Origin: Candidatus Kuenenia stuttgartensis
GTDB taxonomy: Bacteria > Planctomycetota > Planctomycetia > Pirellulales > UBA1268
Assembly: GCA_945873085.1 (NCBI GenBank)
Contig: CAMCCR010000007.1
Coordinates: forward strand, 1 to 40,634
DNA: 40,634 nt
Direction: 5' to 3'
Made by a program: the position numbers and the translations under genes. Below, piece by piece: positions 30,510 to 40,634 of the stretch. The notes under the pieces were generated by a model that saw only the letters and a list, made by a program, of their open reading frames with translations, was not told the origin of the DNA and made no database searches. How positions within the stretch are numbered: the first letter of the stretch is position 1; each line of letters opens with the position of its first letter.

Positions 30510-33353
30510 TCAGTCGACGAAATGAAACTCGTTGGCGGCGAGGAGCACATGCGCCAGTCGCTGCCAGGGAATCTCGGCCGCAAGCCCCGGCTCGAGGGAG
30601 GCCGCCTGCTTGTGGACGAACTCGATGGCGGCGGTCGTCTCTGCCGGCAAGGGGGAGCGGGAGAAGGCGCGGCGGTAAAGCCAGGCCACCCGCCCGGCTT
30701 CGTCAGCCGGACCGGCACGGAGGCTCGCGGCGGCAAACGCCATGGCCCGGTCCTGGATGAAGTCGGAATTGAGGGCGAACAGGGCTTGTTGCGGGATCGT
30801 CGTGTCGGGTCGGCGGGCGGTGCAGGCGGCGGGGTTAGCGCCGTCGAAGGTTCCGGAGAGCGGGGAGAGAATGTCGCGGTTGACGAAGCCGTACACCGTC
30901 CGCCTGGGGACGATCGGCGTCGCCGCGAGGTCGACCGGCGGCCCACCGGCGGTGGTGTCGAGCTCCCCCGAGACCGCGAGCATCGCATCGCGCATCGATT
31001 CCATGTCGAGCCTGCGGCGCGGCATCCGCCACAGCATTTCGTCGTCGGCGTCGATCTGCCGCGCTCCCGAATCCTCGACCGCGGCGGTGCGGTAGGCATC
31101 GGAAAGCATGATCCGGCGATGAAGCGATTTGAGCGACCAGCCGTCGTCGCGGAAGGTCTCGGCGAGGTGATCGAGGAGGTCGGGGTGGGTGGGGGGGCGG
31201 CCGCGGGTTCCGAAGTCGTCGGGGGTGCGGACGAGCCCCGCGCCGAAGTGGTGCTGCCACGCCCAGTTGACGATGACACGGCGGACGAGCGGATTGTCGG
31301 CCGAGACGAGGGCCACAGCGAGGCCGAGGCGGCGTTTGCCGGGGGAGAACGGCGCCGCATCGGGGGCCGACAGGGCGACCGGGAAGCGGGCCTCGACGAC
31401 AGGGCCACGGTTGAGCGGATTGCCACGATTGAGAAGCCTCGTGGCCGGAGCATCGGCCTGTTCCTCGAGAGTCATCGCCCGCGGGGGGGAGCCGGGGGCG
31501 CCGAGATGGAGCTCGTGGATCGCTCCGCCCTTCCCGGCAAGCGTGTCTTGGACGGTGCGGTTGAGGAGGGTGCGGGCGAGCGCGTCGTCGACTGCCGTCG
31601 GCGTGCCGGGGGCGAAGAGATGGTGCCTGAGTTGGCGGCGGATCGGACTGTTGACGACGAGGTGCCGGGGATCCTCGTCGGTGATCAGCCCTTCCCCGAT
31701 TCCTTCTGCCGCCGCCGCGGCGAGACCCTCGAGCCACTCCCGCTGGACGGTGACAAAGACGGCCCCGTAGACATCAGCGACGTCGGCGAGCGTGGCGGGC
31801 TTGCGCTCCGAAAGGGCCGTAAGGACGAGCGGATTCCACTTCGGCGTCTCCTCGCCCAGGCCGTTCCGCGCGGCCGCGGCAGCCGGGTCGCCGTTCTCCG
31901 CGGTGAGGGCAGCGAAGATCTCAACGCACCGCACGTCGAATCCGTCGGCGGGGAGGTCGCGGACCTTCACCCAGGGGCCGAAGACGGGATCGTCGGCGGG
32001 CATCGTCGCCAGGTACGTGCGCCAGCGATCGAGGACATGCGGGCGGACGTCGTCGGTGCGGAACGAGAGAAACGCCGAGGTGAGATCCTGCTCCGGCGTC
32101 CCCTTGGCGAGCTCGCGGAGATAGAGGCCCACCTGCATCCGTAGCCGCCCCTGCATGACGGCGATCTGGTCGCGGGCCATGTCGTCGCGGATCGTCCGGC
32201 GGCGCTCGAGCTCGCGCCGGTAGTCGGCGAAGGCCGGCGTCTCCTCGGGGCTGCCGATGACCGGCGGAAGTTCGGGGGGGGCGCTGGGGGCGAGGGTGGC
32301 GGCGAGGGCGTAGTAGTCGCTCGCGGTGACGGGATCGTATTTGTGGTCGTGGCAGCGGGCGCAGGCGATCGTCAGTCCCATGAAGCCGCGACTGACGACG
32401 TCGATCTGGTCGTCGAGGAGGTCGTAGCGGTTGCGGAACTGCATGCCGATGGTGAGGAAGCCGAGGCCGGCCAACGCCGGGTCGTTCCCGGCAAGTCCCA
32501 TCTGGTCGGCGGCCACCTGCTCGGTGATGAACCGGTTCCAGGGGACGTCGCTGTTGAATGACCGCACGCAGTAGTCGCGGTAGGTGTAGGAGAAGGGGAA
32601 CTTCGTGAAGCCGATGGCACTGCCGCCGTGGGTGTCGGCATAGCGGGCGATGTCGAGCCAGTGGCGGCCCCAGCGTTCCCCGTAGCGGGGGGAGGCGAGG
32701 AGGCGATCGACGACGCGGCCGAAGGCCTCACCTTCGGGGGCGGTGTCAGCCTCGAAGGCCTCGACATCCTCCCAGGCCGGCGGTAACCCGGTGAGGTCGA
32801 ACGTGGCCCTCCGGATCAGTTCACGCCGCCCGATCTGGGGTGGCTCAGCGAGCCCGCGCGACTCGCGGGCGGCGGCGAGGAAGCGGTCGATGTCAGTGCT
32901 GGCCGGTCGGGTCGTAGCGGGAACCGGAGGGCGGCGGATCGGCGCGAAGGCCCAATGCCCCTCGTAGGGCGCGCCGGCTTCGATCCAGCGGCGGAGCGTG
33001 TCGATCTCGGTCGCCGTCAGGCCCGGCCCCTTTTCGGGGGGCGGCATGCGCAGGTCGGGGTCGGTCGTGAGGATGCGGCGCACCAGTTCGCTCTCGTCGG
33101 GCCGACCGGGGACCACGGCCTGCGGCTTGGCCCCCTCGTCGGTGTCGAGCCGGAGATCACCCTGGCGCGATTCGGCGTCGAGGCCATGGCACTCCAGGCA
33201 GTGTTCGGCGAGGATCGGCCGGATATCGCGGTCGAAGCGGACCTCGGCCGCGAGGCTGGTCGATCCGGGGAGGACGATGCCAGCGAGCATGAGGGCCGCC
33301 GTCAGCGCCACGGAGCGGACGGGGGCAAGCGACGGCGATCGTGGGGCCTTCAT
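30510..33353 (-). CDS. PSCyt1/PSCyt2 (DUF1549)/PSD1 (DUF1553) protein
   Basis: The 947-residue exported protein has a signal peptide (about 1-36) followed by a PSCyt1 domain with one c-type haem motif, Cys52-Leu-Glu-Cys55-His56 (AEHCLECHG). PSCyt2/DUF1549 follows at about 150-365 (ATFDLTGLPPAWEDVEAF, HWLDIARYADTHGG, FITEQVAADQM, CARCHDHKYDPVTASDYYAL, which holds a second CxxCH). PSD1/DUF1553 covers about 680-940 (VIVNWAWQHHFGAGLVRTPD, FGTRGRPPTHPDLLDHLA, RRLDMESMRDAMLAVSG). The two CxxCH motifs suggest covalent haem and a periplasmic or surface redox role. It overlaps the upstream permease gene by ATGA (33350-33353) and precedes the DUF1501 gene. This is the usual planctomycetal pair, of unknown function. 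Confidence 0.94.
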   Translation of the reverse strand: MKAPRSPSLAPVRSVALTAALMLAGIVLPGSTSLAAEVRFDRDIRPILAEHCLECHGLDAESRQGDLRLDTDEGAKPQAVVPGRPDESELVRRILTTDPDLRMPPPEKGPGLTATEIDTLRRWIEAGAPYEGHWAFAPIRRPPVPATTRPASTDIDRFLAAARESRGLAEPPQIGRRELIRRATFDLTGLPPAWEDVEAFEADTAPEGEAFGRVVDRLLASPRYGERWGRHWLDIARYADTHGGSAIGFTKFPFSYTYRDYCVRSFNSDVPWNRFITEQVAADQMGLAGNDPALAGLGFLTIGMQFRNRYDLLDDQIDVVSRGFMGLTIACARCHDHKYDPVTASDYYALAATLAPSAPPELPPVIGSPEETPAFADYRRELERRRTIRDDMARDQIAVMQGRLRMQVGLYLRELAKGTPEQDLTSAFLSFRTDDVRPHVLDRWRTYLATMPADDPVFGPWVKVRDLPADGFDVRCVEIFAALTAENGDPAAAAARNGLGEETPKWNPLVLTALSERKPATLADVADVYGAVFVTVQREWLEGLAAAAAEGIGEGLITDEDPRHLVVNSPIRRQLRHHLFAPGTPTAVDDALARTLLNRTVQDTLAGKGGAIHELHLGAPGSPPRAMTLEEQADAPATRLLNRGNPLNRGPVVEARFPVALSAPDAAPFSPGKRRLGLAVALVSADNPLVRRVIVNWAWQHHFGAGLVRTPDDFGTRGRPPTHPDLLDHLAETFRDDGWSLKSLHRRIMLSDAYRTAAVEDSGARQIDADDEMLWRMPRRRLDMESMRDAMLAVSGELDTTAGGPPVDLAATPIVPRRTVYGFVNRDILSPLSGTFDGANPAACTARRPDTTIPQQALFALNSDFIQDRAMAFAAASLRAGPADEAGRVAWLYRRAFSRSPLPAETTAAIEFVHKQAASLEPGLAAEIPWQRLAHVLLAANEFHFVD

Positions 33354-35026
33354 GACGACGGATCCTGCGGGGGGGATCCCGGGATTTTACCTTCGAAGAA
33401 GCCCCAGGCGACGAACAGCGTTGCCAGAAGGGCGTAGGCGAGGGCCATTTCGATCGGGCCCCGCCCCGTGGCCGCTTCGGGAAGGGGGGCGAGGCTCCAG
33501 GGGAGAAACAACCGGCCGTCGGCGTACGGGGAATGGATGATCCCGAAGAGTGTGAACAGCGCCGCCGCCGCCGCCCAGGCCCCCGCCTGCCGGAGCCGGC
33601 GATCGACGAGTGCCGCGGTCATCCCTGCCCAGAGCAGGCTCGTGACGATGAACCCGGCCGAAAGCACCCGCATCGTGTAGAGATCGCGGGCAAGCGCCGC
33701 ATCCGGCTTTGCACCCGCGGCGAGGAGGTTGTCGGCCTGGAGCGTGACCAGCGCCGCCAAGGCCGGCACGCAGGCGATCGCCACGGCGGGGAAGTGACGC
33801 GCGGGGGTGGCATGAAAGCTCTGCGCGGTGATTTCCAGGCCGATAAAGACGAGGATCGGATAGACCGCTGCCGGCGGCAGCGCTTGATAGATGTAGGCGA
33901 AGGAGCCGGTGAGCCCGGCCAGCCCGATCACGGTGGCTGTTGCCAGGGTGTAGGCGGCTCGTCCTCCCATCGCCTTGTAAGCCGGGTGGCCGATGTAGGG
34001 GGTGGTCTGGATGATGCCCCCGCAGGCGCCGGCGAGGATCGTCGCGATCGCCTCGACACCGATCACCGATCCGGTGTCGTACTCGTCTCCCGCGGCGGCG
34101 GCGCTCTCCGTGCAGTCGATCCCGCCGACCACGGTGCCCAGGGCGAAGGGAATCACAATGGGGAGAACCTTCACCGTGTCGGGCCAGCCCTCCAGCCATT
34201 CCAGCCGCAGCGCCGAGAGCCACTCCTGCGGCCAGAGCGCCGCGGCAGGATCGAGCGACGCATGAGGGGCTCCTTCGATCCAGCCCGCAGCCGAGCCCAG
34301 CAGATGCATCCCCCAGCCGACGACCAGGGCGGCCAGGGCTCCCGGGATGCCGAAAGGAAGGGGGATCCGGGCGGTGAGTGTCGCCAGGACGATGCCGAGC
34401 GAGAGGAGGCCGACCAGTGGCGACTCGAAGACATCGAGGAGCGGGAGGAACGTGATCAGCACCAGCGCGACCGCCGTGAGGCTGCCGAGGAGCGCCGCCC
34501 GGGGAATGAGCCGGCGGATCGGACCGGCGACAAAACTGCAGGCGAGTTTGAACAGGCCGCTGGCGACGATGGCACACATCCCCACATGCCAGGCATGACG
34601 GGCCGCGGCCGTGACCACCTCCGGGGGAGCGTCGGCGGGGCCGCGGGCGGCGAGGAATGCCGGGCCGATGACGAGGAACACCATCCCGAAGGTGCTCGGC
34701 GTGTCGAGGCCGAGGGGCATCGCGGTCACATCGCTCCTGCCGGTCTTTCTGGCCAGCCGGAAGGCGAGCCAGGTGAAGAGCAGATCGCCGACCACGACCC
34801 CCACCGCCGTCCCGGGGACGAAGTGGGAGAGGGCGAAGTCGACGGGGAATTGGAAGACGGTCGCCAGGAGGGAGACGGCGAGGACGAGGTCAGCGAGGTT
34901 GTCGAGGGCGAGGCCGAAGAATGCGTTGATATCCCCCGGGGCCGCCCAGCGGTAGGCGTTCCTCCCGCGGTTTGGGGCCGGGCGGGGGGGCTCGGAGCGT
35001 CCGGGGGTGGGGCTGGGGGGTGTCAT
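33350..35026 (-). CDS. NCS2/AzgA-like permease
   Basis: The 558-residue integral membrane protein has about 12-14 hydrophobic segments. The N-terminal helix INAFFGLALDNLADLVLAVS, the GRSDVTAMPLGLDTPSTFG segment, the charged CTESAAAAGDEYDTGSV motif and the following GACGGIIQTTPYIGHPAYK resemble the NCS2 (xanthine/uracil/AzgA) transporters, where equivalent segments line the substrate path. The relation is distant, so the substrate may not be a nucleobase. I chose ATG 35026; a GTG at 35077 would add 17 residues. It is the first gene of the minus-strand block and overlaps the PSD1 gene by four bases, so the two are probably translationally coupled. The 200-bp gap to the divergent sigma-factor gene should hold its promoter. 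Confidence 0.78.
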   Translation of the reverse strand: MTPPSPTPGRSEPPRPAPNRGRNAYRWAAPGDINAFFGLALDNLADLVLAVSLLATVFQFPVDFALSHFVPGTAVGVVVGDLLFTWLAFRLARKTGRSDVTAMPLGLDTPSTFGMVFLVIGPAFLAARGPADAPPEVVTAAARHAWHVGMCAIVASGLFKLACSFVAGPIRRLIPRAALLGSLTAVALVLITFLPLLDVFESPLVGLLSLGIVLATLTARIPLPFGIPGALAALVVGWGMHLLGSAAGWIEGAPHASLDPAAALWPQEWLSALRLEWLEGWPDTVKVLPIVIPFALGTVVGGIDCTESAAAAGDEYDTGSVIGVEAIATILAGACGGIIQTTPYIGHPAYKAMGGRAAYTLATATVIGLAGLTGSFAYIYQALPPAAVYPILVFIGLEITAQSFHATPARHFPAVAIACVPALAALVTLQADNLLAAGAKPDAALARDLYTMRVLSAGFIVTSLLWAGMTAALVDRRLRQAGAWAAAAALFTLFGIIHSPYADGRLFLPWSLAPLPEAATGRGPIEMALAYALLATLFVAWGFFEGKIPGSPPQDPSS

Positions 35027-35127
35027 CGAGGCCTGGCTGGCGGAGAAGGGGGGCCTCCGGCCGATCCACCCGGCCACCGGTCCTTTCGGAACAGGGGCCG
35101 CAACTTCGCGGCAGGAGGGATGGGCCG

Positions 35128-35135: not shown

Positions 35136-35226
35136 CCACGGGGCGGATTTCCGGGGGGGGCCAAGGCCCCTCCAACTTTTTTCAGCCCGGCTTGCGAACC
35201 CGGTTCCCCTTCACGCCGTAGTGCCG

Positions 35227-35994
35227 ATGGTTGCACACGATTCTCATTCCCGTTCCGGAGAGACTCCAGCCGGCCGTGTTCACGGCGATGGCCCTTCGTC
35301 CGCGGTGCGCCCCAAGGGGGCAAACGCTGACAGGGGTGCGGTGGTCGACCGGGAACCGGTCGCTGCCGCCGCGGTGAACGTCGTCGACCGGGGTGACGGC
35401 GGGAGAGAAGGTGGGCCCTCCGATGAGGAACTGCTCCGGCGGTTCCGCAGCGGCGGGGATGAAACCGCCTTCGAGGCGCTTGTGCACCGTTACGAGCAGG
35501 AGTTGTTCAGTTACCTCCGTCGCTATCTCGGCAGCGCCGAGATGGCGGAGGATGTGTTTCAGGCGACGTTCCTGCAGGTGTATCTCAAGAAGGAGGGATT
35601 CGAAGAGGGCCGACGGTTTCGACCGTGGCTCTACACGATCGCCACGAACCAGGCCATCGACGCCCAGCGTCGCAATCGTCGGCACCGGATGGTCAGTCTT
35701 GACCAGCGGACCGGCGACGACGACGTCGGCGCCTTGGTGGAGATGCTCGCGGGGCGTGACCAGACCGCCGATGATCGGATGGCGGGCGAGGAAGCGAAGG
35801 AATGGGTGCGGTCGGCGGTCCAGGACCTGCCGGATGCCCTCAGGAGTGCGCTCGTCCTCGTCTACCACCAGGGGATGAAGTACCGCGAAGCGGCGGACGT
35901 CCTCGGCATCCCGGTTGGCACCGTCAAGAGCAGGCTTCACTCGGCGCTTTTGAAGCTCAATGAATCCTGGCAGGCCGGCGGAAAGAGTCTCTAG
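35227..35994 (+). CDS. ECF-type sigma-70 family RNA polymerase sigma factor
   Basis: The 255-residue protein contains region 2 (about residues 65-150: EELLRRFRSGGDETAFEALV, AEDVFQATFLQVYL, FRPWLYTIATNQAIDAQRR) and region 4 (about 190-245: LPDALRSALVLVYHQGMKYR, EAADVLGIPVGTVKSRLHSA). Regions 1 and 3 are absent, as in ECF factors. The first 60 or so residues are low-complexity and may be a real extension or an over-called start; GTG codons near 35340-35375 would give a standard-length protein. A single-TM protein gene follows after 64 bp and looks like the cognate anti-sigma. No ECF-type autoregulatory promoter could be assigned with confidence. Confidence 0.92.
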   Translation: MVAHDSHSRSGETPAGRVHGDGPSSAVRPKGANADRGAVVDREPVAAAAVNVVDRGDGGREGGPSDEELLRRFRSGGDETAFEALVHRYEQELFSYLRRYLGSAEMAEDVFQATFLQVYLKKEGFEEGRRFRPWLYTIATNQAIDAQRRNRRHRMVSLDQRTGDDDVGALVEMLAGRDQTADDRMAGEEAKEWVRSAVQDLPDALRSALVLVYHQGMKYREAADVLGIPVGTVKSRLHSALLKLNESWQAGGKSL

Positions 35995-36058: not shown

Positions 36059-37180
36059 ATGCGAGACGATTTGGTCGGCTATCTGATCGGGGCCCTCGAC
36101 GCCCCTGACTCCCACCGCGTCGAGGCGCTGCTCGCCGATCCGCAGTCGGGTGAATCGTTACGCCGCGACCTCGAGATCCTCCGGCGATCGATGTCGCCAG
36201 TCGTTGCCGATAGCGAGCCGCTTCCGGCTCCGGCCGGGCTGGCAACGCGGACGCTGGAGATGATCGCCGCCCGAAAGACGAGCGCCCCGCACGACGGGCC
36301 GGAGGCTTCCTCCCAGCCTTCTGCCGCGCCGGGTCGACCCCGGGCAGAGCCCGCCAACGACTCTTTTCGGGGTTCCTTCCCGGCCGACCATCGGTCGCGT
36401 CCCCAAGCCCCCCGCCATCACGGCCGACACCACCGCAGCACCGCCGATGGCCGTCCGTCCACGATGACGCCGGAGCGGTCGGCAGGCCATGTCGGCTCGC
36501 CGCTGGCCTGGCTCGACAAGGTGATCCTCGCCGCCACGGCGCTGGCCGCCTGCGTTCTCGTGATTCCCGGCCTCAGCCTGCTTGTCGACGATGCCCGGAA
36601 GACGCAGACCGTCCGGAAGCTGGGGAGGGTCGGCGGCACGCTCCAGGAATACGCCGCCTCGCATCGAAAGTATCCCTCGCCCCCCGATGCCGGCCCGATG
36701 TCCCGCGGCGGGCTCTACGCCCCCACGCTCGTCTCCGAGCATCGCATCGTTGCCGACGACGGCATGCTGCTCTCACCCGGTTCGACGCTCGCCGTGAAAG
36801 GCACCCACCGAATCCCGACGGTCGAGGAAGTGAAGTCTGCCGTTGGCACTCCTGAGTTTGACGAGATGGTCGGGGCGATGGGGGGTGATTTCGGTTACAC
36901 GCTCGGCCATCGCGATCCGATGGGGCGTCTGGTGCCGATCCGTCCCCTCCACCGCGGCCACCACCCGATCATGGCCGATGCACCCGACTCCAGCTGCGAG
37001 CGAAGCGGCAATGATCCCCACGGAATCCATCACATTCTCTTCGAGGATGGACGGGTGAAGACGGTGCCCGAAGCCCAACTCCACGGCGACGACCATCTGT
37101 TCCGCAACCATGATGGCCACACGGCCGCCGGCAACGATGCCGAGGACGCTGTCATCGGCGACTCCCACCACCAGCCCTGA
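36059..37180 (+). CDS. Putative anti-sigma factor with pseudopilin-like periplasmic domain
   Basis: The 373-residue protein follows the sigma-factor gene by 64 bp. Residues 1-75 (DDLVGYLIGALDAPDSHRVE, DPQSGESLRRDLEILRRS) look like the cytoplasmic segment of anti-sigma proteins, but there is no Cys-based zinc motif. A disordered Pro/His/Arg-rich linker leads to one membrane helix at about 155-176 (VILAATALAACVLVIPGLSL). The helix is followed by ARKTQTVRKLGRVGGTLQEY, similar in spacing to the post-helix segment of type II pseudopilins, and the protein ends with HGIHHILFEDGRVKTV (Asp330-Gly331), like the C-terminal signature of planctomycetal DUF1559/pseudopilin proteins. The anti-sigma call rests on gene order and topology only; a sigma-regulated surface protein is the alternative. 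Confidence 0.6.
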   Translation: MRDDLVGYLIGALDAPDSHRVEALLADPQSGESLRRDLEILRRSMSPVVADSEPLPAPAGLATRTLEMIAARKTSAPHDGPEASSQPSAAPGRPRAEPANDSFRGSFPADHRSRPQAPRHHGRHHRSTADGRPSTMTPERSAGHVGSPLAWLDKVILAATALAACVLVIPGLSLLVDDARKTQTVRKLGRVGGTLQEYAASHRKYPSPPDAGPMSRGGLYAPTLVSEHRIVADDGMLLSPGSTLAVKGTHRIPTVEEVKSAVGTPEFDEMVGAMGGDFGYTLGHRDPMGRLVPIRPLHRGHHPIMADAPDSSCERSGNDPHGIHHILFEDGRVKTVPEAQLHGDDHLFRNHDGHTAAGNDAEDAVIGDSHHQP

Positions 37181-37243: not shown

Positions 37244-38809
37244 TCAGCCGACGAACCAGGTGGCGATCCAGTAGAGGCCACCAGAGAGAGCCATCGCCAC
37301 CGGGAGCGTGAGCACCCAAGCCAGCGCGATCTCTTTGACGGTGTCGGCCTGGATGCCCGACTTGTTGGCCCACATCGTCCCGGCAATGCCTGACGAGAGC
37401 ACGTGCGTCGTGCTCACCGGCATGCCGAGATTATCGGCCAGGGCGATCGTCGTGGCTGCCACGAGTTCGGCTGCGCCCCCCTGGGCGTAGGTGAGATGCT
37501 CCTTGCCGATCTTCTCGCCGACGGTAACGACGATCCGCTCCCAGCCGAACATCGTGCCGAGCCCGAGACAAATAGCCACGCCCCACTTCACCCATTCCGG
37601 GACGTATTCGACCGGCTTGGAGAGCTTGCCAGCGAGGCCCTTGAGGATCTTCCGCCGGTCTTCCGTGATCTGGTCGCCGAACTGCCGCACGAGCGTCCGC
37701 ACCGAGGCACCGAGCTCAACGAGCTGCGTGCGGAGATTCCAGCGCTCGTCGCTGGAGAGATCCTTGAATCCGCCGCGGCCTTCGAGGGCAGCAACGACCG
37801 AGGCGGCCAAGGGGACCGGATCGAGAGTGGCAAGGACGACGTCGTTTTGCGGATAGGGATCGAGGATGTTGTCGAGCGACGAATGCTCGAGGGAGGCCTC
37901 GGCAGCAGAGACGACGTCGGAGCGGGTGATCCGCTCCACTCTCGCGTTGGCGAGGTGCTGCTCCTTGAGGACCGTCATCAGGTTTGCAAGGTCGGGCTTC
38001 TCGAGCTCGGCCTTGAGCTCCTTCGCCGCGGCGACGGTCGCTTGGAGATCATCGCGGCTGGCATCGAGGTTGAGGGCGTAGGTCGCCGGCACGATGCCGA
38101 TGAGCACGAGCATAATCAGCCCCATCCCCTTCTGGCCGTCGTTGGAGCCATGGGCAAAGCTCACGGCGGTGCAGGTGCTGATGAGGAGGGCGCGGATCCA
38201 GCCCGGGGGCGGCTTGTCCCCATCGGGCGGCTGGTAGAGCTCCTTGGCGGGGATGAGAGCCTTGCAGAGAAGGAGGAGGCCGGCGGCGAGGGCAAAGCCG
38301 ATCAGCGGCGAGAGGATCAGGGCGATGCCGACTTCGCTTGCCTTGTGCCAGTTGATCCCCTTGGCGAGCGAGCCGTTCTCGAGAAGTGAGTTCATCATCC
38401 CCACGCCCATGATCGAGCCGATCAGCGAGTGCGAGCTCGAGGCGGGGAGGCCGCGGTACCAGGTGGCGAAGTTCCAGATGATCGCCGCACCCAACAGCGA
38501 CAGCACCATCGCCAGACCGCGGCCTGTCTTGATGTTGACGAGGAGATCGACCGGGAGGAGGTGGACGATGCTGAAGGCGACGCCGATCCCGCCGGCGTGG
38601 ACCCCGATGAAGTTCCAGATCCCCGACCAGACCACCGCCCAGGTCGGCTTCATCGACTTGGTGTAGATGACGGTGGCGACGGCGTTGGCCGTGTCGTGGA
38701 AGCCGTTGATGCACTCAAACCCGAAGGCGATGACAAGCGCGATTAGCAGGAGGATCAACTGGCCAGTGCCGAGCGACGAGAAGGCTTCGAAAAGTTCCAC
38801 GATCGGCAC
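37244..38809 (-). CDS. Pit-family inorganic phosphate transporter
   Basis: The 521-residue inner-membrane protein has the two Pit half-signatures: NGFHDTANAVATVIYTKSM near the N-terminus and STTHVLSSGIAGTMWANKSG near the C-terminus. The inner segments GLPASSSHSLIGSIMGVG and SFAHGSNDGQKGMGLIML are also characteristic. A soluble loop of about 150 residues with charged helices separates the halves, as in PitA-type proteins. Pit carriers move metal-phosphate with protons at low affinity. The start codon is GTG at 38809 (MPIVELFEAF) and no strong ribosome-binding site precedes it. The divergent neighbour encodes a phosphate-type porin, so both may serve phosphate uptake. No pstSCAB or phoU gene is present in the window. 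Confidence 0.93.
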   Translation of the reverse strand: MPIVELFEAFSSLGTGQLILLLIALVIAFGFECINGFHDTANAVATVIYTKSMKPTWAVVWSGIWNFIGVHAGGIGVAFSIVHLLPVDLLVNIKTGRGLAMVLSLLGAAIIWNFATWYRGLPASSSHSLIGSIMGVGMMNSLLENGSLAKGINWHKASEVGIALILSPLIGFALAAGLLLLCKALIPAKELYQPPDGDKPPPGWIRALLISTCTAVSFAHGSNDGQKGMGLIMLVLIGIVPATYALNLDASRDDLQATVAAAKELKAELEKPDLANLMTVLKEQHLANARVERITRSDVVSAAEASLEHSSLDNILDPYPQNDVVLATLDPVPLAASVVAALEGRGGFKDLSSDERWNLRTQLVELGASVRTLVRQFGDQITEDRRKILKGLAGKLSKPVEYVPEWVKWGVAICLGLGTMFGWERIVVTVGEKIGKEHLTYAQGGAAELVAATTIALADNLGMPVSTTHVLSSGIAGTMWANKSGIQADTVKEIALAWVLTLPVAMALSGGLYWIATWFVG

Positions 38810-39210
38810 TCCCAGCGTGGTGAGCCCCAGGCTCGGAGGAGCGGGGGGTAAAGAGACCCGGAGGTTTCAAAGGCTTTGGGCAAAGTAGGCGGCTCCGGAG
38901 CCCCGCACAAGCAACGAATCAAACTCTCACAAACTGGCGGCGCACACCGCTGCCTGCCGCGTTGGGGCGGCCGCCCTGAAGACGGTGCCTCGGCAGACGG
39001 GCCGAACGGCGGGGGTGGGGCCCCCCAAAGTAAAGCCGGCGACGCCTCCCCTCGCTCCGGAATCGTCAGAATCCCCAGGAAAACGCAGCCTGCAGGAAAT
39101 CCGGATTCCTAATACTCCGATGGGCCAAAGTTGGCCGAATCTAACGACTGTGCCAGTCGGAGGATTTGTCCTGCCATGGCCCTGGTGCACCGAAACGCTC
39201 GCCCCGCTTC
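38810..39210. other. Divergent intergenic region rich in palindromes (Pit / porin)
   Basis: About 400 bp without a gene. It contains the perfect palindromes GGCTCCGGAGCC (38891-38902) and AATCCGGATT (39098-39107), plus two small hairpins, GGCCAA/TTGGCC (39123-39136) and CGACTG/CAGTCG (39145-39159). The best AT-rich patch is TAATACT at 39110-39116, without a matching -35 box. I could not identify a PhoB-type box. Short open frames here look like chance frames. Confidence 0.6.
39098..39159. promoter_or_regulatory. Cluster of three inverted repeats before the porin gene
   Basis: AATCCGGATT (39098-39107), GGCCAA-AG-TTGGCC (39123-39136) and CGACTG-TGC-CAGTCG (39145-39159) lie within 62 bp, ending 51 bp before the porin start. 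Each is a perfect inverted repeat. They could be operators or structure in the mRNA leader. Short palindromes are common in GC-rich DNA, so only the clustering is notable. Confidence 0.35.
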
Positions 39211-39237
39211 ATGCAACCCATGCAACCCATGCAACCA
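39211..39237 (+). repeat. Three tandem 9-bp units at the porin start codon
   Basis: ATGCAACCC, ATGCAACCC and ATGCAACCA follow each other directly, giving MQPMQPMQP. Each copy offers an in-frame start codon. Slippage would change the number of possible starts without shifting the frame. Confidence 0.9.
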
Positions 39238-40634
39238 AGGGGCCAGTGGCTCGCAGTCGTCGCGGCTCGGTGGGCGGCTGCCCGTGTGGGCTTGGCCTTG
39301 ATCGCGATCCAACTGGCCGGTGGAGGTGTCGCCGCGCTGGCCGCCGACCCGCTCGCAGCGCCCCCATTCCTTCCCGGCATCGCGGCTGACGCGCTCCCCG
39401 AGGGGAAAGAACTCTTCTCCGACACCTTCGACGAGATCGGCGAGGGGGAACCCGAGCCGCCGACGGGCCGGCCACTCAAGAATCCGATCCGGCTCGCCTC
39501 CCAGATTCAGGATCCGGCCATCGAGACCGTCGACGAGCAAACGCGCGGCTTCTCGCCCGGGGGCGGCCGGGAAGCGGGCTCCGGCGGCCAATCGCTCGGG
39601 GAAGCCCTCCGTCAACGCTACAACAACATCCAGGATCCTGCCATCGAGACGGTCGACGAGCAGACCCGCGGCGGCAACGACCACTCCGGCGAGAAGGAGT
39701 GGTACGAAAAGATCAACATCCGCGGCTACACCCAGATGCGCTACAACAGCACGCTGTGGTACGACGAGGATCAGGCCGGCCCCTATCATCCGAACGACAA
39801 GTCGGTTGGGCCGAACAACAACTTCTTCCTCCGCCGCGTCCGTCTCATCTTTTCAGGCGACATCAGCGACCGGCTCTACATCTACATCCAGCCCGATTTT
39901 GCCTCGAGCCTGTCGGGCGTGAGCGATCCGGGGGCCATCAACTACGGCCAGCTCCGCGACTGCTACGGCGACTGCTACATCACCACCGACAAGGTTCACC
40001 GTGTCCGCGTCGGGCAGTCGAAGGTGCCCTACGGCTGGGACAACATGCAGTCGAGCTCCAATCGTCTCCCCCTCGATCGGGCCGACTTCATCAATGCCAC
40101 GAAGAGCGAGCGTGGGCTCGGCGTCTTCTACTACTGGACGCCCGACTATGCCCAGGATCTCTACAAGGAGGTGCTCGAAGAGGGGCTGAAGGGCTCGGGC
40201 AACTACGGTGTCTTCGGGATCGGTTGCTACAACGGCCAGGGCAACTCGACGCTCGACCAAAACAACAACATGCACTTCGTGATGCGTCTCAATTCCCCCT
40301 ACAAGTTCGACAATGGCCAGATCGTCGAGGCGGGAGTGCAGGCCTACACGGGCAACTATGTGCCGACGCTTGCCGACATCAAGATCGGCGGCAGCACCGT
40401 CAGGCCGGTGGTGGTCTCGCCCTCAAACGGCGTGCTGGACCAGCGGATCGCGGCGACCTGGGTCTACTACCCGCAGCCGCTGGGCGTGACCTGCGAATGG
40501 AACACCGGCCTCGGGCCGCAGATGAGCAGCTTGAACGGCGTCACCCCGAGCAATCCCCCCACGATCTCGAGCCAGCCACTTTCGGGCGGCTACGTGCTTG
40601 TCAACTACAAAGCCGACACCGATCGCTTCGGCGT
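39211..40634 (+). CDS. Phosphate-selective (OprO/OprP-type) porin, 3' end outside window
   Basis: The frame is open from ATG 39211 to the last base, so the gene continues beyond the window; 474 codons are visible. An in-frame stop at 39142 limits the start, and three ATG codons (39211, 39220, 39229) occur in a row. A signal peptide (hydrophobic core VGLALIAIQLAGGGVAALAA) is followed by a linker in which a 15-residue motif occurs twice, then Porin_O_P-type strands: EKINIRGYTQMRYNSTLWYD, NNNFFLRRVRLIFSGDIS, RLYIYIQPDFASSL, VHRVRVGQSKVPYGWDNMQS and NRLPLDRADFINATKSERGL. This is the outer-membrane channel family that admits phosphate or polyphosphate, though some relatives are general anion porins. 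The divergent Pit gene supports a phosphate role. Confidence 0.9.
   Translation, partial: MQPMQPMQPRGQWLAVVAARWAAARVGLALIAIQLAGGGVAALAADPLAAPPFLPGIAADALPEGKELFSDTFDEIGEGEPEPPTGRPLKNPIRLASQIQDPAIETVDEQTRGFSPGGGREAGSGGQSLGEALRQRYNNIQDPAIETVDEQTRGGNDHSGEKEWYEKINIRGYTQMRYNSTLWYDEDQAGPYHPNDKSVGPNNNFFLRRVRLIFSGDISDRLYIYIQPDFASSLSGVSDPGAINYGQLRDCYGDCYITTDKVHRVRVGQSKVPYGWDNMQSSSNRLPLDRADFINATKSERGLGVFYYWTPDYAQDLYKEVLEEGLKGSGNYGVFGIGCYNGQGNSTLDQNNNMHFVMRLNSPYKFDNGQIVEAGVQAYTGNYVPTLADIKIGGSTVRPVVVSPSNGVLDQRIAATWVYYPQPLGVTCEWNTGLGPQMSSLNGVTPSNPPTISSQPLSGGYVLVNYKADTDRFG
39505..39672 (+). repeat. Duplicated 15-residue motif in the porin N-terminal linker
   Basis: IQDPAIETVDEQTRG is encoded at 39505-39549 and again at 39628-39672. 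The two 45-bp copies differ at five positions, all synonymous third bases (att/atc, ccg/cct, acc/acg, caa/cag, acg/acc). They lie between the signal peptide and the first barrel strand, separated by a Gly-rich spacer. Confidence 0.92.

Follow-up and report, generated by a model that had tools for sequence, protein, structure and literature searches.

A sigma factor gene and its downstream partner

The window, meaning the whole 40,634-nt stretch of DNA analyzed here, derives from a 3.6-Mb, 89% complete MAG (G000) with 35 places matching PF07596 (DUF1559). Its forward strand carries an ECF sigma factor gene with a predicted promoter ahead of it and the gene of a putative anti-sigma factor behind it:

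35195..35220 (+): CGAACC-N16-CGTA, a predicted promoter through which the ECF factor would regulate its own gene
35227..35994 (+): ECF sigma factor gene, matching Sigma70_r2 (E 7.1e-18) and Sigma70_r4_2 (E 1.8e-13), both over cut-off
36059..37180 (+): anti-sigma gene with a pilin-like periplasmic half, ATG start and TGA stop, 373 aa, product presumably located in the membrane

The sigma reading frame stops at position 35994 and the anti-sigma frame begins at 36059, leaving a gap of 64 bases. The short gap and the matches to both sigma domains upstream bear out the first-pass annotation, which had described the gene as directly following an ECF sigma gene. The start codon of the sigma gene is uncertain: we placed it at the ATG at 35227, and the frame is open further upstream. 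On the other side of the sigma gene, and directed away from it, is a multi-TM, permease-like ORF (33350-35077, -) without a Pfam match at E <= 0.01. Clustering of neighboring genes placed homologues of this ORF upstream of the pair in 21 of 73 loci. Downstream of the anti-sigma gene lie a PHO4-family phosphate transporter (37244-38809, -) and the start of a protein similar to phosphate-selective porin O/P (39166-40634, +), a possible phosphate theme next to the sigma/anti-sigma pair.

The pairing of the two genes extends well beyond the window. Of 78 distinct loci (nine repeat loci dropped, L055 included), 75 have a sigma gene ahead of the anti-sigma gene in the same orientation, and the remaining three (L017, L030 and L042) start at contig edges. 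Outside the order, the same arrangement was present in 20 of the 20 class-level loci chosen; in this and all later tallies, the order is taken to be Pirellulales and the class Planctomycetia. The distance between the genes is 176 to 415 bases in L069, L077 and L088, and in L055 the sigma frame ends 750 bases ahead of the anti-sigma frame.

A conserved promoter upstream of the sigma gene

A conserved promoter motif ahead of its own gene is to be expected of an ECF factor that drives its own transcription. The pattern CGAACY-N16-CGTA has a sole exact match in the 40,634-nt window, where 0.07 would be expected. Furthermore, the dyad GAAC-N17-CGT was found upstream of homologous sigma genes in 72 of 91 regions, a set of related, non-independent sequences, and any other gap of 5 to 30 bases in 0 to 11 of them. 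The 91 are what remained of 104 regions once L054, L055, repeats and any shorter than 300 bases had been set aside. By group, the dyad was present in all 31 regions of the family, 24 of 40 from the rest of the order and 17 of 20 from outside the order. The longer form CGAAC-N17-CGTA occurred in 56 of the 91; in five controls made by shuffling two-base blocks, the most frequent dyad reached 6 to 8 regions each time. Neither GAAC-N17-CGT nor GAAC-N19-CGT was found in 18 of the 91 regions. The conserved promoter predicts that the sigma/anti-sigma pair is autoregulated.

Across the source genome, the exact motif occurs at 14 places and its reversed counterpart, used as control, at 8; this excess does not support a regulon or allow a further target to be named. 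No DUF1559 (PF07596) or T2SSF place has any of the 14 in the 3 kb ahead of it. In the window, the ATG at 35227 stands only 6 bases past the predicted -10 element; unless translation begins further downstream, the sigma transcript could lack a leader. The promoter is 222 bases from the conserved sigma domain, against a median of 98.

Domain organization of the 373-residue protein

We divided the protein and its coding sequence into the following segments:

36059..36298 (+): anti-sigma domain, about residues 1-80, presumably cytoplasmic, from NF052375, anti-sigma profiles matching relatives and the predicted helices
36299..36499 (+): variable linker, about residues 81-147, with poorly aligned columns and pLDDT mostly under 40
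36503..36568 (+): TM helix, residues 149-170, in pilin register +1 to +22, from column counts and the ungapped DUF1559 profile alignment
36569..36673 (+): C-terminal half of the pilin-like alpha1 plus the beginning of the loop, residues 171-205, from the predicted helix and the DUF1559 alignment
36674..37066 (+): globular periplasmic part, residues 206-336, with several short predicted strands and a weak profile match alone
37010..37057 (+): degenerate H-X10-DG segment NDPHGIHHILFEDGRV, residues 318-333, from alignment columns and the profile alignment
37091..37177 (+): conserved C-terminal tail, residues 345-373, with D363 in 72/72, N350 in 71/72 and G358 in 71/72

Residue counts out of 72 refer to an alignment (A2) of the window protein with 71 other sequences, which omits L055, seven genome repeats in L039-L047 and seven partial or split copies (L014, L017, L030, L042, L045, L053 and L054). 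A class-wide alignment (A5) has 54 rows. The order of segments fits the anti-sigma topology initially proposed for the protein (an N-terminal segment, one TM helix and a periplasmic part), as do the low-confidence structure models.

As sole query, the window protein matched no Pfam family even at E <= 10, and a PDB sequence search with it found nothing; the homology came to light through relatives. The NCBIfam profile NF052375 aligned with residues 5-90 of the window protein at E 1.5e-5, below its curated cut-off, and the best NCBIfam anti-sigma match of the protein (25.1 of 100 bits) is under the curated cut-off. Among the 72 sequences, NF010501 was found in 67 and NF052375 in 62 at E <= 0.1 (NCBIfam). 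RskA_N matched 10 of the 72. The family profile also retrieved RskA among solved structures at E 0.19. The consensus of the domain (LxGYLLGALD..E...VE..L) has no zinc ligands. Such an absence is permitted in RskA or RseA types, but it weakens the match to a class I domain. Class I anti-sigma domains have four helices, the fourth of them set apart. An AlphaFold2 model (mean pLDDT only 48.7) places four N-terminal helices at residues 2-9, 15-25, 31-44 and 61-74.

A pseudopilin-like second half

An acidic residue at +5 and proline at +22 matter for pilin helices, and both positions are retained in the TM helix. D153, the equivalent of pilin +5, is D in 70, E in one and N in one of the 72 aligned sequences, and P170, at pilin +22, is proline in 70 of them. 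Class-wide, D or E occupies +5 in 53 of 54 rows and proline +22 in 51 of 54. A conserved acidic residue inside a TM helix, together with Pro22, suggests that the helix may contact other pilin-like helices. Further along the register, position 184 (Cys36) is cysteine in 40 of 72 sequences and threonine in the window protein, position 187 (Asn39) is asparagine in 48 of 72 and lysine in the window protein, and P206 (Pro58) is proline in 70 of 72.

The TM helix and the stretch that follows it give an ungapped alignment with alpha1 of DUF1559 proteins from the same genome. Indeed, a profile-profile comparison with seven of these proteins gave a probability of 97.8 (E 7.5e-13) with the TM segment included and 96.0 (E 4.2e-9) without it. 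The globular part alone gave a probability of 49 (E 1.7e-4) and was placed on the H-X9-DG segment; the anti-sigma domain, used as a control against DUF1559, gave 0.2. In addition, 38 of the 72 sequences match PF07596 at E <= 0.1 (best E 1.9e-9), and at this threshold 19 match H-X9-DG-CTERM and 3 match GspG. Geopilin and GspG head the solved-structure matches of the family profile, which also include PilE1, with E values of 0.0015 to 0.02. The likeness of the post-helix segment to planctomycetal pilin-like proteins, which the first-pass annotation had suspected, thus holds in the DUF1559 profile alignment and in the 38 relatives. For the periplasmic half, this assignment to DUF1559 emerged through relatives and profile alignment but not from the window protein alone, which had no Pfam match.

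The C-terminal segment calls for a different count. The histidine column of the family is position 319, which is H in 70 of 72 sequences and D in the window protein and in one relative (L041). Both H319 and DG are kept in 59 of the 72 rows, with a spacing of 10 residues in 58 and 9 in one. The H-X9-DG signature of DUF1559 proteins is therefore found in 1 of the 59 rows that have H and DG. The original reading of the window protein as an H-X9-DG motif one residue short was mistaken, having been counted from H321 (8 residues before D330) rather than from column 319. We rejected it: the family form is H-X10-DG, one residue longer, and the histidine has been lost from the window protein.

AlphaFold2 was run with input alignments of 14 and 16 sequences and returned mean pLDDT values of 48.7 and 60.7. 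Besides short strands, these low-confidence models show one continuous helix, at residues 150-200 (150-201 in the domain model). Fold searches with the low-confidence domain model found no pilin. Foldseek gave no match at E <= 0.001, and the best VIA-align hit against 378 chains had a Z of 2.6, with none significant. Because the model is poor, these null results are uninformative and do not count as evidence against a pilin fold.

Lack of a conserved prepilin-peptidase site

Prepilin leaders have G at -1 and a hydrophobic residue at +1 of the cleavage site. The window protein has P148 at -1 and L149 at +1, and the leader signature is unconserved among the 72 sequences: G occupies -1 in 13 of 72 and R occupies +1 in 26 of 72. 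In 9 of 72, a G or A at -1 is followed by a hydrophobic or aromatic residue. Since the site is not kept, the protein should remain bound to the membrane with its N-terminus inside. The prepilin peptidase profile PF01478 had no match in the source genome, which could reflect either an assembly gap or a divergent peptidase; the absence of one gene says little because the MAG is 89% complete. T2SSF-type proteins are encoded at 5 places in the MAG, 4 of them over cut-off.

Distribution among the Planctomycetia

Searches with the single window protein (E <= 0.001, own genome included) matched at least 66 of 72 genomes of the family, with all 34 of those of good quality among them. Matches were found in at least 234 of 296 genomes of the order (good quality, at least 182 of 205) and at least 153 of 248 of the class (good quality, at least 129 of 221). 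These tallies, like those of the profile and phylum searches below, are lower bounds, since scoring covered a part of the candidates in each genome: up to 27, 6 and 8 in the family, order and class searches, and up to 71 and 21 in the profile and phylum searches. Among the matches listed, most genomes have one gene, sometimes in two pieces. A profile search of 30 genomes, 26 of them previously without a match, matched at least 9 of the 30 at E <= 1e-20, at least 7 of them new. In one family of the class (f22), the profile search found strong matches (E <= 1e-20) in 0 of 12 genomes among the candidates scored; with the single protein as query, two of the 12 had matched weakly (E 2.5e-4 and 3.6e-4).

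A phylum sample of 99 genomes included 94 from outside the class, which were covered by one search at E <= 1e-20; at least six of these outside genomes matched. In all six, among the matches are prepilins with the usual N-terminus of GFTLIELLVV type, which lack an anti-sigma domain. In the phylum sample searched, the sigma-paired anti-sigma/pilin architecture is thus mainly found within one class. A DUF1559-like C-terminal segment with a D-I tail is also present in true prepilins outside the class, which suggests that the family descends from a prepilin.

A probable pseudopilin anchor of a putative anti-sigma factor

Comparative sequence analysis demonstrates the architecture of the protein, the gene pairing, the conserved promoter and the pilin homology. 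We consider it probable that the locus encodes an autoregulated pair of an ECF sigma factor and a class I membrane anti-sigma factor, whose anchor and presumed sensor would be an uncleaved, exapted pseudopilin of the DUF1559/H-X9-DG type. The anti-sigma domain and linker would occupy the place of the short prepilin leader. At rest, the N-terminal domain would hold the sigma factor at the membrane, and some alteration of the pilin module, whether within the membrane or in the periplasm, could release it, directly or by way of proteolysis. The pilin-derived half would thereby relay an envelope signal, and the freed sigma factor would transcribe its own operon from CGAACC-N16-CGTA. Such a pilin-anchored anti-sigma factor suggests an unusual route from the cell surface to gene control in many planctomycetes. 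More specifically, and more tentatively, the protein could be a non-cleavable pilin turned transcription regulator, with alpha1 docked among inner-membrane pseudopilins so that pilus or secretion activity shifts its partners and frees the sigma factor. We regard this docking as rather unlikely; if true, it would provide a direct pilin-to-sigma signaling device across much of a bacterial class.

The pilin half may instead be merely an inherited anchor, a reading to which we give a little less than an even chance. The globular part and the His/Asp-rich tail would then read the signal (a ligand, a metal or envelope stress), release would proceed by RseA/RskA-like proteolysis and pili would have no link to the system. 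The C-terminal tail is indeed among the best conserved parts of the protein (D363 in 72/72), the MAG has no PF01478 match, and no promoter-like place lies within 3 kb upstream of PF07596 or T2SSF places. However, the acidic +5 and Pro +22 are retained throughout the class, the MAG is 89% complete and T2SSF-type proteins are present in 5 places. We consider it very improbable that prepilin peptidase removes the anti-sigma domain as a switch, which would make the protein a prepilin whose leader is exceptionally long. The unconserved cleavage site (P148 at -1 and L149 at +1 here, G at -1 in 13 and R at +1 in 26 of the 72 sequences) and the lack of a PF01478 match in its own genome speak against it, even though the anti-sigma domain sits exactly at the leader position and nine of the 72 sequences retain G or A at -1 ahead of a hydrophobic or aromatic residue. 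Scarcely credible is a chance neighborhood, in which a DUF1559 paralogue without regulatory role happens to follow a sigma gene. Some of the 35 PF07596 places in the genome may adjoin sigma genes by chance, but the anti-sigma domain is conserved, the pairing is kept in all testable loci and the single-protein search yields one gene in its own genome despite these 35 places.

The exapted pseudopilin that we favor combines features of known systems. Like class I anti-sigma factors of the RskA/RseA type, the family has a predicted helical N-terminal domain without zinc ligands, one TM helix and a periplasmic part, its gene adjoins the sigma gene and an autoregulated ECF promoter is predicted. Unlike them, it shares homology with a pseudopilin over the TM helix and the periplasmic half. 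With DUF1559/H-X9-DG-CTERM proteins (PF07596, TIGR04294) it shares the alpha1 register (acidic +5, Pro +22 and, in the family, CxxNL, Y50 and F/Y-P58) and a C-terminal H...DG segment. It differs from them in having an anti-sigma domain and linker for a leader, no conserved peptidase site, an H-X10-DG spacing and, among the matches listed, usually one copy per genome. The geopilin domain 1 protein and GspG pseudopilins are alike in alpha1 by profile (9egp, E 0.0015; 5wda, E 0.02), but they are cleaved fiber subunits and the window protein is not expected to be cleaved. PilS-PilR of Pseudomonas aeruginosa offers a parallel in principle only, and we claim no homology: the membrane regulator reacts to the pilin PilA in the membrane (PMC6058289). 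There, the pilin is bound by PilS, a histidine kinase with six TM segments, whereas here the regulator itself would be pilin-like.

DUF1559 is one of the largest planctomycete families and has no known function. Planctopirus limnophila has 68 paralogs, of which two are essential (PMC10632474), and in Rhodopirellula baltica the family counts 74 genes, labelled solute-binding (PMC2754498). The portions of the literature that our search covered call DUF1559 solute-binding or function-unknown or just name it, and never tie it to an anti-sigma factor; earlier mention elsewhere is possible. As far as these searches go, a pseudopilin anchor and presumed sensor in an ECF/anti-sigma pair is an unreported type, with priority left to any such mention. 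A relative that is conserved, mostly present once per genome and linked to a sigma factor would offer a handle on the role of the DUF1559 fold because its regulon and membrane partners are measurable. It would also show that the pilin module is reusable as the input part of a membrane regulator.

Variant copies

A few loci depart from the common design. The family match at L054:5464-6654 is spread over two reading frames, and at L156:994-2010 the matches are limited to parts of the pilin-like half; both copies look split or degenerate. In a relative from outside the order (L129:2980-4260, -), which had no match in a Pfam search, the protein seems to carry two tandem anti-sigma domains, since the beginning of the family profile aligns with it in two places. 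One of the six matching genomes from outside the class (G556) encodes a protein (L167:1207-2319, -) that combines a zinc-finger anti-sigma domain (zf-HC2, over the Pfam cut-off) with a DUF1559-like half and has a sigma gene upstream, which speaks for the main reading proposed above. The combination may have arisen independently, or it may represent an ancestral form of the design.
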